This document shows, piece by piece, positions 6,732-11,828 of a DNA stretch of 42,621 bases. The stretch spans positions 1 to 42,621 of the forward strand of contig DVMF01000087.1 in assembly GCA_018715125.1 (NCBI GenBank), read 5' to 3'. Position 1 is the first letter of the stretch, and each line of letters begins with the position of its first letter. This DNA comes from Candidatus Coprousia avicola (GTDB taxonomy: Bacteria; Actinomycetota; Coriobacteriia; Coriobacteriales; Coriobacteriaceae). Both the position numbers and the translations under genes were made by a program. The notes under the pieces were generated by a model that was given only the letters and a program-made list of their open reading frames with translations, ran no database searches and was not told where the DNA came from.

Positions 6732-6911
6732 GCGCCCCTGCCCGTGGGCGCCTTCGCTTGACGGCGCCGGCGTTGCGGCAGCGGGACAGGGTGAGGTCAC
6801 GGGCCGACGGCTCTTTGAGGTGCTCGGCGGGCCCGCTCTCTGCGCGTCGGTAACCGGTTGGAAACAAGGCGACCGTTTGCGGGATTGTGGGCGGCGGCGG
6901 GGTTGTGCCTT

Positions 6912-6920
6912 TGCTACACT
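6912..6920 (+). promoter_or_regulatory. Possible extended -10 promoter of the leu operon
   Basis: TGCTACACT matches an extended -10 element (TG-N-TAnnnT) 56 bases before the leader peptide. No convincing -35 box is at the right distance. Confidence 0.35.
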
Positions 6921-6975: not shown

Positions 6976-7074
6976 ATGATGACGAGGGGCATCCATACGG
7001 TAGAGAAGGCCGCTTGGCCTGCTGCCGCCTGCTCGCTTCTAACCCTAGCGCTACTACGCGCCGATGCGCGCTAG
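6976..7074 (+). CDS. leuL: leu operon leader peptide
   Basis: A 32-codon reading frame that starts [14 protein letters not shown] and ends [13 protein letters not shown]. Near its end, five of seven consecutive residues are leucine, coded CTT, CTA, CTA, CTA, CTA. CTA is scarce in this GC-rich window, where leucine is nearly always CTC or CTG, so ribosomes should be very sensitive to the level of that leucyl-tRNA. GAGG precedes the ATG by five bases. The leucine codons and the stop lie inside the first hairpin of the attenuator that precedes leuA. The peptide itself is expected to have no function beyond its translation. Confidence 0.75.
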
Positions 7075-7190
7075 GGTCTTCTCGCCTTTGCGGCTCGCAG
7101 CCGCCCGTCTTTTCAGAAGCACCCCGACGCGCATCTACCCGACGCCTTGCAGGGCGTGACGCGCGACGGGGTGCTTCTTCCGTTTTCGGT
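7042..7190 (+). promoter_or_regulatory. Leucine attenuator (leader RNA switch)
   Basis: Alternative pairings are visible. Segment 1:2 is a perfect 10-bp stem, ACCCTAGCGC (7042-7051) with GCGCTAGGGT (7068-7077), overlapping the leucine codons and stop of the leader peptide. Segment 2:3 pairs GGGTCTTCT (7074-7082) with AGAAG-C-ACCC (7115-7124, one bulge) and would be the antiterminator. Segment 3:4 is the terminator described separately. Stalling at the leucine codons blocks 1:2, allows 2:3 and lets transcription enter leuA. This is the classical ribosome-mediated mechanism; no T-box motifs are present. Confidence 0.78.
7115..7186 (+). terminator. Attenuator terminator before leuA
   Basis: A perfect 12-bp outer stem (7115-7126 with 7167-7178) encloses a GC-rich inner region with further pairing (ACGCC/GGCGT), followed by TTCCGTTTTC. 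It is the 3:4 structure of the leucine attenuator. Confidence 0.82.
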
Positions 7191-7271
7191 TCTCATGCCA
7201 ACCGTCACCTCCTGCAACGCCTGACGTCACCCCGGCGGGCACAAGGACCGCCCCAAGAGCAGGAGGACCAC

Positions 7272-8807
7272 ATGACCAGAAAGATCGCCATCTTCGACAC
7301 CACGCTGCGCGACGGCGAGCAGTCGCCCGGCGCCAGCATGAACACCGAGGAGAAGCTCATCGTCGCGCGGCAGCTCATCCGCATGAACGTCGACGTGATC
7401 GAGGCTGGCTTCCCCATTTCGAGCCCGGGCGACTTCAAGAGCGTGGCCGAGATCGGTCGCCTCGCGGGCGACCGCTGCGTCGTGTGCGGCCTCACCCGCG
7501 CCGTCGATAAGGACATCGAGGTGGCGGCCGAGGCGCTCAAGTGTGCAAAGCGCCCCCGCATCCACACCGGCCTGGGCGTATCCCCGAGCCACCTGCGCGA
7601 CAAGCTGCATCTCACGGAGGACGAGGCCATCGAGCGCGCCGTCCGCGCCGTGAAGCTCGCGCGCAGCTTTGTGGATGACGTCGAGTTCTATGCGGAGGAC
7701 GCCGGCCGTGCCGACCAGGACTTCCTCTGCCGCATTGTGGAGGCGGCCGTCAAGGCGGGCGCCACGGTGGTGAACATCCCCGACACCACGGGCTACAACA
7801 TGCCGTGGGCCTTCGGCGCGCGCATCAAGGACCTGCGCGAGCGCGTGGCGGGCATCGAGGACGTGACGATCTCGGTCCACACGCACAACGACCTCGGCAT
7901 GGCGACGGCCCTTGCCATCGAGTCGGTGCGCAACGGCGCGACGCAGGTGGAGTGCACCATCAACGGCCTGGGCGAGCGGGCGGGCAACACGGCGCTCGAA
8001 GAGGTGGTCATGGCCATCAAGATGCACGCCGCCGAGCTCGACGCGCACACCGATATCGTCACGCAGGAGCTGACGCGCGCAAGCAAGCTCGTGAGCTCCA
8101 TCACCGGCATGACCGTGCAGGCCAACAAGGCGATCGTGGGCGCCAACGCGTTTGCCCACAGCTCGGGCATCCACCAGGACGGCGTGCTCAAGGCGCGCGA
8201 TACCTACGAGATCATCGACCCGGCCGACGTGGGCGCCGGCGGCTCGCAGATCATCCTCTCCGCGCGCTCCGGCCACGCGGCGCTGCGCCATCGCATGGCC
8301 GAGCTCGGCTACACGTTTGCCGATGAGGAGTTTGAGGGCATCTACCAGGCCTTCCTCGAGGTTGCGGACAAGAAGAAGGAAGTGTACGACGAGGACCTCG
8401 AGTCCATCGTGCACGAGCGCGAGCGCGAGACGAAGGCCATCTGGACGCTGGGCGCCGTGCAGGTGTCCTGCGGCTTCCCGCTCACCCCGACGGCTACCTT
8501 GACGCTTGTGGGCGAGGATGGCGAGGAGCACACGGTCGCCGCGTTTGGCACCGGCCCCGTCGACGCCGTCTACAAGGCCGTCAACCAGATCGTCTCGGTC
8601 GAAAACGACCTCTCGGAGTTCGCCATCAAGGCCATCACCCGCGGCATCGATGCGCTGGGCGAGGTCACCGTCCGCGTGACGGCGGGTTCGGGCCAGGTCT
8701 ACACGGGCCGCGGCTCCGACAACGACATCATCGTGTCTTCCACCAAGGCCTACATCAACGCGCTCAACCGTCTCATTTCCGATCAACGCGAAGCGAAGGA
8801 GAACTAG
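7272..8807 (+). CDS. leuA: 2-isopropylmalate synthase
   Basis: Condenses acetyl-CoA with 2-ketoisovalerate, the first committed step of leucine synthesis. The protein is 511 residues, the usual length of the long bacterial form. The catalytic TIM barrel begins at once ([16 protein letters not shown], residues 8-23), with the metal-site HTHNDLG near residue 205 and [14 protein letters not shown] near residues 292-305. The C-terminal third is the regulatory domain that binds leucine for feedback inhibition ([40 protein letters not shown]). ATG 7272 has AGGAGG upstream; the open frame extends left only through the leader. leuC starts one base after the stop. Confidence 0.96.
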
Positions 8808-8808
8808 G

Positions 8809-10077
8809 ATGCCACGTCCCATGACCGTTGCCGAGAAGATCTTGGCGGCCCATGCCGGGCTCGATGAGGTGCGCCCCGGCCAGCTCGTCGAATGCGACCT
8901 CGACATCGTGCTCGCCAACGACATCACCGCGCCTATTGCCATCGACGTCTTTCGCGAGCTCGGCGCGACCGAGGTCTTCGACCGCGAGCGCGTCTGCCTC
9001 GTGCCCGACCACTACGCGCCCAACAAGGACATTAAGAGCGCTGAGCAGACCAAGAAGATGCGCGACTTCGCCCACGAGCAGAAGATCGTGCACTACTGGG
9101 AGCAGGGCTGCGCGGGCATCGAGCATGCGCTGCTGCCGGAGCAGGGCGTCGTGGTGCCGGGCGACCTCATCATCGGCGCCGATAGCCACACGTGCACCTA
9201 CGGTGCCCTCGGCGCGTTTTCCACCGGTGTGGGGTCGACGGACGCCGGCGTGGGCCTCGCCACGGGGCGCGCGTGGTTCAAGGTGCCGCCCACCATCAAG
9301 TTCGTCATCGAGGGAGAGCTCGCCGACGGGGCCACCGCCAAGGATATTATCCTCCGCATCATCGGCCAGATCGGCGTCGACGGGGCTCTCTACCAGGCGA
9401 TGGAGTTTACCGGATCCACCATCGCGAGCCTCTCCATGGAGGGGCGCATGTGCATCTCCAACATGGCGATCGAGGCGGGCGGCAAGGCAGGCATCATGGA
9501 GGTCGACGATGTGACGCGCGCCTGGCTCGCGGGCCGCGGCGAGCGCCAGGGCGTGGAGTACCATGCCGACGCGGACGCGGAGTACGCCCAGGTCATCCAC
9601 ATCGATGCGGCCGACATCAAGCCCTGCGTCAGCTGGCCGCACCTTCCCTCCAACACGCATCCCGTGGAGGAGAGTCGCCACATCGCCATCGACCAGGCGG
9701 TTATCGGCAGCTGCACCAACGGCCGCATCGAGGATATGCGCGCCGCCGCCCAGGTGCTCCGGGGGCGTCGGGTTAACGAGCGCGTGCGCTGCATCGTGAT
9801 ACCGGCGACGCAGGCCGTCTTCAAGGCGTGCATGGCCGAGGGCCTCGCCGATATCTTTATCGACGCTGGCTGCGTGTTCTCGACGCCCACGTGCGGCCCG
9901 TGCCTGGGCGGCTACATGGGCATCCTCGCGGCGGGCGAGCGCTGCGTCTCGACCACCAACCGCAACTTCGTCGGGCGCATGGGCGATCCCACCTCTGAGG
10001 TCTACCTTGCGAGCCCCGCGGTGGCGGCGGCATCGGCCGTCGCCGGCCACATCGCCCTGCCGAGCGATCTGGAATAG
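8809..10077 (+). CDS. leuC: 3-isopropylmalate dehydratase, large subunit
   Basis: With LeuD, isomerises 2-isopropylmalate to 3-isopropylmalate through an aconitase-type iron-sulfur cluster. The 422-residue length points to the shorter LeuC group shared by archaea, clostridia and many anaerobes rather than the roughly 466-residue proteobacterial form. Seen in the sequence: DSHTCTYGALGAFSTGVGSTD near residue 125, the cluster cysteine in GSCTNGRIEDM, and the cluster pair in STPTCGPCLGG. The start lies one base after leuA, with GAAGGAGA ahead of it, so translation is coupled. Confidence 0.95.
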   Translation: MPRPMTVAEKILAAHAGLDEVRPGQLVECDLDIVLANDITAPIAIDVFRELGATEVFDRERVCLVPDHYAPNKDIKSAEQTKKMRDFAHEQKIVHYWEQGCAGIEHALLPEQGVVVPGDLIIGADSHTCTYGALGAFSTGVGSTDAGVGLATGRAWFKVPPTIKFVIEGELADGATAKDIILRIIGQIGVDGALYQAMEFTGSTIASLSMEGRMCISNMAIEAGGKAGIMEVDDVTRAWLAGRGERQGVEYHADADAEYAQVIHIDAADIKPCVSWPHLPSNTHPVEESRHIAIDQAVIGSCTNGRIEDMRAAAQVLRGRRVNERVRCIVIPATQAVFKACMAEGLADIFIDAGCVFSTPTCGPCLGGYMGILAAGERCVSTTNRNFVGRMGDPTSEVYLASPAVAAASAVAGHIALPSDLE

Positions 10078-10080
10078 GCT

Positions 10081-10142
10081 ATTTGGGGACGTGTTCGTTT
10101 CAGCCCATGTGACCCATTTGGGGACGTGTTCGTTTTAACCCA
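10081..10142 (+). repeat. Two tandem copies of a 27-base intergenic repeat
   Basis: Copies at 10081-10107 and 10116-10142 share ATTTGGGGACGTGTTCGTTT and then differ at two positions (C/T and G/A). They are spaced 35 bases apart and fill the leuC-leuD gap. Similar GGGGAC-type intergenic repeats are familiar to me from coriobacterial genomes; no function is evident and the operon continues across it. Confidence 0.85.
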
Positions 10143-10159
10143 TTGCGGAGGGATAACCC

Positions 10160-10675
10160 ATGCATTTTGAAGGCACCGTATTTCGCTATGGCCGAGACGT
10201 CGATACCGACGTGATCATTCCGGCGCGCTACCTCAACAGCTCCGACCATGCGCACTTGGCGGCGCACGCGATGGAGGACCTCGACCCCACGTTTGCCGCG
10301 CGGGTGCAGCCGGGCGACATCGTCGTTGCCGAGGAGAACTTCGGTTGCGGCTCGAGCCGTGAGCACGCGCCGGTCGCGCTCAAGGCGGCGGGCGTCTCCT
10401 GCGTCATCGCCAAGAGCTTTGCCCGCATCTTCTACCGCAACGCCATCAACGTCGGCCTCGCGATCCTCGAGTGCCCCGAGGCGGTCGACGCCATCGCCGA
10501 CGGCGCGCGCGTGGCGGTGGATACCGAGACCGGCACCATCTCGAATCTCGACACAGGCGCCACGTTTACCGCCGAGCCGTTCCCGCCCTTTATCGCCGAG
10601 ATCATCGAGGCGGGCGGCTTGGTCGAGCGCACGCGCAGGAAGCTGGCGGACGGAACGCAAGATGCCGCTCGATAA
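10160..10675 (+). CDS. leuD: 3-isopropylmalate dehydratase, small subunit
   Basis: Partner of LeuC; supplies the swivelling domain that closes over the substrate. 171 residues, matching the short LeuD that goes with the short LeuC class. Landmarks are [14 protein letters not shown] near the N-terminus and [11 protein letters not shown] near residues 58-68, the conserved substrate-binding loop. The ATG is preceded by GGAGGG. The C-terminus overlaps a possible early start of leuB, but the preferred leuB start lies 43 bases downstream. Confidence 0.95.
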
Positions 10676-10718
10676 CCCGTTTGCCGCCGGCCCCTCGTCA
10701 ATCGATTGGAGCTGTAAC

Positions 10719-11828
10719 GTGAAGAAGACCTATCAGATCTGCTGCCTGCCGGGAGACGGCATCGGCCCCGAGATCATCGCCGAGGGCAAGAAGGTGCTCG
10801 CCGCGGTGGGCGACAAGTACGGCTGCGCGTTTACCTGCGCCGATGCGCTCATCGGCGGCGCCGCCATCGATGCTGCCGGCGACCCCCTGCCCGACGAGAC
10901 GCTCGCCGCGGCGCGCGCCGCCGACGCCGTGCTGCTCGCCTCGGTCGGCGGGCCCAAATGGGACTCGACCGACCCCGCGGCGCCCCGCCCCGAGCAAGGG
11001 CTCCTGCGCATCCGCAAGGAGCTCGGCCTCTACACCAACCTGCGCCCCGTGCAGATCTTCGCGGCGCTGGCGGGCGCTTCGACGCTGCGCCCCGAGGTCA
11101 TCGACGGGGTGGACATGATGATCGTGCGCGAGCTCACGGGCGGCCTCTACTTCGGTCGCCGTGAGCGCTTCTACGGCGAGCCGGGCGCCGGGACGGACGG
11201 TAGGCCGGGCCAGCGCGCCTATGACACGCTTGAGTACCGCGAGTACGAGATCGAGCGCATCGCCCGGCAGGCGTTCGAGGCGGCGCGCAAACGGCGCGGC
11301 AAGGTGTCGAGCGTCGACAAGGCCAACGTGCTCGAGACGAGCCGCATGTGGCGCGAGATCGTCCACCGCATCGGCGCGGAGGAATACCCCGACGTGGAGC
11401 TCGAGGACGTGCTGGTGGACAACGCCGCCATGCAGCTCATCAACCGCCCGGCGACCTTTGATGTGGTGGTGACCGAGAACATGTTCGGCGACATCCTCTC
11501 CGATGAGGCGGCGCAGATCACCGGCTCGCTCGGCATGCTCGCCTCGGCGAGCTTAGGCGATGGCGTGGCGCTCTACGAGCCGAGTCACGGCAGCGCCCCG
11601 GACATCGCGGGGCAGGGTGTCGCGAACCCGCTCGCGCAGATCCTCTCGGTGGAGATGATGCTGCGCTACAGCTTCGACATGGCCGCGGCGGCCGACGACA
11701 TCCGCCGGGCGGTGACCGAGGTGCTCGACGAGGGCTGGCGCACGCGCGACATCGCCGACGCGACGACGCCCGCCGACCGGGTGCTCGGCACGGCAGCTAT
11801 GGGAGACCAGGTGGTGGCGCACCTGTAG
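10719..11828 (+). CDS. leuB: 3-isopropylmalate dehydrogenase
   Basis: NAD-dependent oxidative decarboxylation of 3-isopropylmalate, giving the keto acid precursor of leucine. The 369-residue protein starts [20 protein letters not shown] and shows [10 protein letters not shown], the metal-site segment [20 protein letters not shown] and the NAD-site [17 protein letters not shown] chose GTG 10719 because GGAGC lies six bases upstream and the protein then begins as the family normally does; ATG 10662, in frame and inside leuD, would add 19 unusual residues. It completes the order A-C-D-B. Forty-eight bases of this gene (11505-11552) recur in altered form at 19474-19521. Confidence 0.95.

Follow-up and report, generated by a model that had tools for sequence, protein, structure and literature searches.

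How is the leu operon of Candidatus Coprousia avicola, a member of the Coriobacteriaceae, controlled? The question is raised by the DNA immediately upstream of leuA on contig DVMF01000087.1 (assembly GCA_018715125.1), whose 42,621 nucleotides (nt) were analyzed as a whole and are called the window here. Working from the letters of this DNA, an initial annotation had read positions 6976-7190 as an attenuator that controls a leucine operon through a CTA-rich leader peptide. Using the leaders of related genomes for comparison, we find that leuACDB is very probably under ribosome-mediated transcription attenuation, with a run of rare CUA codons as the sensor, and that additional pairing continues past the terminator up to the Shine-Dalgarno sequence of leuA. 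All features of the window described below are located on the plus strand.

Leader peptide and alternative helices upstream of leuA

The leader peptide is encoded by an open reading frame (ORF) of 32 codons at 6976-7074, which ends with a TAG stop codon at 7072-7074 and is kept in the leaders of the Coriobacteriaceae. A GAGGG motif a few bases 5' of this ORF may serve as its Shine-Dalgarno sequence. The five leucine codons of the leader, CTT at 7036-7038 and CTA at 7039-7041, 7045-7047, 7051-7053 and 7054-7056, form the control-codon run CTT CTA ACC CTA GCG CTA CTA (7036-7056). As a baseline for codon usage we took the ORFs of the window and the leuA genes. In the long ORFs of the window, for which the gene calls are approximate, CTA accounts for 13 of 1055 leucine codons (about 1.2%), and the probability that at least four of the five leader codons are CTA by chance is 1e-7. 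The same bias is found in an alignment of 27 Coriobacteriaceae leaders: within the last 22 codons CTA makes up 109 of 148 leucine codons, compared with 1 of 794 in the adjacent leuA genes (counts available for 24 of the 27 loci). At 7051-7053 every one of the 27 leaders has the codon CTA. Since the T and the A of this codon fall outside the stems, selection appears to act on the codon itself, beyond the RNA structure. The genome contains one tRNA-Leu gene each for UAG, CAA, GAG, CAG and UAA. A pattern search of the genome for a second CTA-run element returned the leuA leader as the sole exact match, and the matches with one mismatch resemble TAC-rich coding repeats.

Four RNA segments can be assigned around the control codons. 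Hairpin 1:2 (7042-7077) consists of ten perfect base pairs between ACCCTAGCGC (7042-7051) and GCGCTAGGGT (7068-7077) and spans the last leucine codons and the stop codon. Region 2 (7063-7082), which includes the stop codon, is the 5' arm of the antiterminator 2:3 and pairs with region 3 (7115-7135) in 18 of 20 positions, with one bulge, two mismatches and one G-U pair. Region 3 is common to this helix and to the intrinsic terminator 3:4 (7115-7186), in which 7115-7132 is paired with 7161-7178 and the stem is followed by the tail TTCTTCCGTTTT. Folding of the leader beats 200 of 200 shuffled sequences (z -3.88). The initial annotation had thus placed the 32-codon peptide with its CTT and four CTA codons and the overlapping perfect 10-bp hairpin correctly, and its remark that CTA is rare in the window is borne out by the codon counts; one tRNA-Leu(UAG) gene is present. 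Its description of the antiterminator as exact but for one bulge was too favorable. A small hairpin, GCGGCTCGCAGCCGC, is located inside the antiterminator loop at 7090-7104; inspection by eye showed that it is changed yet still pairable in several relatives. Together with the subsequent CCGTCTTTTC it has the look of another weak terminator or of a hairpin that nucleates folding.

Both alternative helices covary among the 27 leaders. The antiterminator 2:3 shows 24 cells with two-sided changes against a shuffled mean of 11.1 (0/500 shuffles), and in several lineages a G-C pair at alignment columns 64/137 is exchanged for A-U. For the terminator 3:4 the values are 21 against 6.4 (0/500), and for hairpin 1:2, where the signal is weak, 6 against 2.2 (6/500). 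In addition, the duplex energies of the native partners of 2:3 and 3:4 were better than those of swapped partners in 20,000 of 20,000 permutations; in the same test the control pairs of regions 2 or 3 with the downstream region 5 (described below) gave no native-versus-swapped signal. Shuffles and permutations leave the relatedness among the sequences in place. Conservation of the leader frame and of the stems in relatives, proposed by the initial annotation as a check of its reading, is found for both, and the reading is supported by the covariation of 2:3 and 3:4, the conserved leader and the restriction of the element to leuA.

Four of five features that characterize amino acid attenuators are present: a leader ORF rich in leucine codons, a terminator, an antiterminator beside the control codons that excludes it, and an operon for the same amino acid. 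By its anatomy the element is a case of classical ribosome-mediated amino acid attenuation. With ample Leu-tRNA(UAG) the ribosome would arrive at the stop codon and cover region 2, 3:4 would pair and transcription would end near 7186. With charged Leu-tRNA(UAG) in short supply the ribosome would stall on the CUA codons, 2:3 would pair and the polymerase would continue.

Pairing beyond the terminator

The extent of the element up to 7190 given by the initial annotation holds for the attenuator part, but the comparison ties a segment 3' of this position, which had been missed, to the same device. The terminator loop L4 (7142-7160) contains an inner stem (7142-7146/7153-7157), and its sequences TTGCAGG (7147-7153) and GTGAC (7156-7160) are complementary to region 5 (R5, GTCACCTCCTGCAA, 7204-7217). 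Within R5 the motif CCTGCAA (7211-7217), which pairs with L4, overlaps the anti-Shine-Dalgarno sequence CCTCCTGC (7208-7215). The latter is complementary to region 6, the Shine-Dalgarno sequence of leuA (GCAGGAGG, 7259-7266). An all-against-all scan for antiparallel 7-bp helices in the 27 aligned leaders yielded 11 windows of alignment columns with at least 88% paired cells. Six of these belong to 2:3 and 3:4, two to L4:R5 (TTGCAGG:CCTGCAA) and one to the pairing of CCTCCTG with the leuA Shine-Dalgarno sequence CAGGAGG, and the two others have at most two two-sided changes.

The L4:R5 helix covaries as well, with 7 two-sided cells against 1.9 in shuffled alignments (0/500), and swapped partners beat the native ones in 0 of 20,000 permutations. 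About six lineages show exchanges: L008 and the leaders of genus g2 have C-G in place of U-A, L021 and L023 have A-U in place of U-A, and L025 has G-C in place of U-A. A further exchange, G-C to U-A in L027/L129, was read by eye because the alignment program MAFFT had put a gap at this site. As the inner terminator hairpin leaves the covarying sites unpaired, and as in most species they fall outside the Shine-Dalgarno complement, neither of these explains the covariation, and we consider the helix well supported by the comparative data. For the second helix, a Shine-Dalgarno complement of 6-8 nt is retained in 25 of the 27 leaders; its mean length over all 27 is 6.8, compared with 4.2 in shuffled spacers. 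When 2:3 was forced and the RNA included only the sequence up to R5, L4:R5 formed in 27 of 27 leaders with a mean of 13.3 pairs, compared with 3.5 for shuffled tails.

We propose as the likeliest reading, with a probability of roughly 0.4, that the element is a six-segment attenuator (1:2, 2:3, 3:4, 4:5 and 5:6), in which one ribosome stalled on CUA would set termination and, via capture of the anti-Shine-Dalgarno sequence, also the translation of leuA. In the Coriobacteriaceae R5, which is able to cover the leuA Shine-Dalgarno sequence, would instead be captured by the terminator loop and arm once antitermination has freed them. A shortage of leucine would thereby also favor translation of leuA, and leaky read-through RNA would stay untranslated. 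The translational step is put forward tentatively on the basis of the covarying pairing. If it is true, two added helices let a transcription attenuator shut the translation of read-through mRNA under the same signal.

Several findings weigh against this proposal. The pairing of R5 with the Shine-Dalgarno sequence is degraded in L015 and L030 and shows no covariation in the 27 leaders, since the Shine-Dalgarno sequence barely varies. Once this sequence was added to the folded RNA, R5 returned to it at equilibrium in most species, under 2:3 or 3:4 alike, and L4:R5 was substantially kept in only about one third of the species. A translational switch must consequently be kinetic, operating during RNA synthesis, or weak. 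A pseudoknot of L4 with R5 on a terminator that stays folded is conceivable too, and such a pairing would not depend on leucine. As regards the attenuator itself, the U tail of the terminator is interrupted, and a simple scan did not call it.

A credible, if doubtful, alternative is a plain four-segment transcription attenuator, in which L4:R5 and the pairing of R5 with the Shine-Dalgarno sequence serve mRNA stability or the folding of the spacer and not the control of translation. The stretch 6976-7186 holds all parts needed for leucine control, and both the sequestration of the Shine-Dalgarno sequence in the two states at equilibrium in most species and the weak or lost pairing in L015 and L030 fit this explanation. 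However, it accounts neither for the joint change of TTGCAGG and CCTGCAA in about six lineages nor for the Shine-Dalgarno complement that nearly all leaders retain. We regard it as unlikely that L4:R5 is a pseudoknot formed while the terminator hairpin stays folded, providing a constant, leucine-independent basal translation of leuA from read-through RNA. In the window, TTGCAG corresponds exactly to the loop at the tip of the inner hairpin, so that the 6-bp core can form with the terminator unopened. In many species, however, L4:R5 extends past the loop (GTGAC/GTCAC in the window; with 2:3 formed, the mean is 13 pairs), and for this extension the inner stem must open.

Very improbable is a control of the kind described for the LEU element of actinobacterial leuA genes, in which the leucine codons pair with the Shine-Dalgarno sequence, a pseudoknot is formed and no terminator is reported (Seliverstov 2005, PMC1262725); a protein or the structure would then govern translation. 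Both leaders encode a leucine-rich peptide in front of leuA and involve the Shine-Dalgarno sequence (PMC1262725). Here, the leucine codons pair with region 2, and a covarying terminator is located between them and the Shine-Dalgarno sequence. We rejected this explanation for the Coriobacteriaceae, as the all-against-all scan of their leaders contained no conserved helix between the leucine-codon run and the leuA Shine-Dalgarno sequence, the base stem of the LEU element. Finally, short ORFs and hairpins are common in GC-rich DNA, but a chance coincidence of a leucine-rich ORF with GC-rich hairpins is refuted by the conservation in relatives and countered by the codon statistics and the covariation.

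Distribution in relatives and genes of the operon

The gene leuA is present in 31 of 65 Coriobacteriaceae genomes; the relatives examined include Collinsella ihumii, Collinsella massiliensis, Enorma and Candidatus Limicola. With a covariance model of regions 1-4 the full-length element was detected 5' of leuA in all 31 leuA-bearing genomes and also in two genomes of genus g41, which belongs to another family of the same order. Detection in the 24 family sequences used for training is circular, because the model was built from them; an independent test comes from the three genomes of g2 and the two of g41. The element occurs once per genome, at leuA. The search with the model revealed no convincing copy elsewhere, and the remaining matches were weak or partial (E 1e-4 or worse, e.g. 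G114, G011 and G277) or corresponded to the reverse strand of the same palindromic terminators. A separate direct search of the leuA upstream regions also recovered CTA-rich leader peptides, which share the position of their end.

Some leaders deviate from this pattern. L005 (1311-1509 of a draft-genome contig that also carries L031), which was omitted from the alignment, lacks about 70 nt comprising the 3' arm of the terminator and region 5. This gap may stem from faulty assembly or represent a real deregulating deletion; the leuA match on this contig also reports an internal TAA. The g2 leaders L010, L015 and L024 are mutually similar, but their leuA genes are scattered over the leuA tree, a hint that leader and gene have recombined. 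In these leaders the stop codon is located several codons further downstream. In G031 and G052 (L129, L130 and L163) the leader is intact, the leuA match is limited to residues 2-192 and an internal TGA is reported; leuA looks broken or truncated in these genomes. Deeper-branching metagenome-assembled genomes of Actinobacteria/Coriobacteriia (L066, L068, L069, L072, L074, L078, L080 and L083) have in common a different short ORF about 90-230 nt 5' of leuA. It mostly ends with GLLGRL(M/I)QPAAV and is a candidate for a separate leucine leader peptide.

In the window the leader element is followed by the genes leuA, leuC, leuD and leuB in this order (leuACDB). The gene leuA (7272-8807) encodes 2-isopropylmalate synthase and is assigned by the NCBIfam models NF002086 and TIGR00973, both over cut-off. 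The other genes span 8809-11828, with leuC at 8809-10077, leuD at 10160-10675 and leuB inside an ORF at 10248-11828. TIGR02083 and TIGR00169 support leuC and leuB over cut-off; for leuD, TIGR02087 is over cut-off and TIGR02084 slightly below. Upstream of the leader, TTTGCTACACT at 6910-6920 is a candidate extended -10 promoter element with the hexamer TACACT (6915-6920). In most Coriobacteriaceae leaders TTGCTACACT or a close variant is found about 315-370 nt from leuA, a spacing similar to that in the window. A simple scan gave no -35 match for this candidate promoter.

Comparison with known leader systems

Taken together, the data describe a well-supported leucine attenuator for the Coriobacteriaceae, a common gut family. 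Rfam release 15, including any described leu leader, gave no score above the gathering cut-off, and gathering and relaxed thresholds produced chance matches only. In the openly licensed literature, whose silence is weak evidence of absence, we found neither a description of a leucine leader in Coriobacteriaceae nor a combination of transcription and translation attenuation in an amino acid leader that senses a starved codon. The downstream extension to the leuA Shine-Dalgarno sequence has apparently not been described before. Both modes of attenuation are combined in one leader in the tlrB, vmlR and trp/TRAP systems of B. subtilis (PMC12288461). These leaders respond to an antibiotic or, by way of TRAP, to tryptophan, and not to a starved control codon, and no sequence relation to them is known.

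The initial annotation had referred to leucine attenuators in other Actinobacteria and in enterics. For the enterics this is correct, as the Salmonella leu leader shows; in contrast, the LEU element of actinobacterial leuA (PMC1262725) is a different, terminator-free structure. It shares with the leader described here the leucine-rich peptide before leuA and a Shine-Dalgarno sequence in alternative pairing, and differs in that here a terminator is present, the leucine codons pair with region 2 and a separate segment pairs with the Shine-Dalgarno sequence. In another family of the order, the g18 leuA leaders L115, L116, L117, L119, L120 and L121 encode leucine-rich peptides that end with LPSAR or LTSAR and use mixed CTC, CTT and CTA codons. 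In several of them folding pairs leucine codons such as CTTCTC with the Shine-Dalgarno sequence of leuA (GAGAAAGG), and L116 and L120 are without a U tail. These leaders recall the LEU element and suggest that control has shifted between the levels of transcription and translation. The Corynebacterium ilvBNC attenuators (PMC11857589; PMC1262725) likewise combine a leader peptide with a terminator at an actinobacterial branched-chain operon, but gene, codons and structure differ.

The closest likeness is to the leu attenuator (leuL) of Salmonella and E. coli. In the Salmonella leu leader the control codons are CUA, and their change to CUG lowered the sensitivity (Carter 1986, as discussed in PMC1183508). 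A role of a rare leucyl-tRNA as the sensor in Coriobacteriaceae is plausible and would agree with this report. The choice of CUA as leucine sensor in a GC-rich and distant lineage bears on the selective-charging theory of control codons. The two systems share CUA control codons, mutually exclusive antiterminator and terminator helices and the position 5' of leuA. Unlike in leuL, the control codons of the Coriobacteriaceae leader are interrupted by alanine and threonine codons and adjoin the stop codon, the stop codon itself is part of region 2, and conserved pairing past the terminator reaches the Shine-Dalgarno sequence of leuA.
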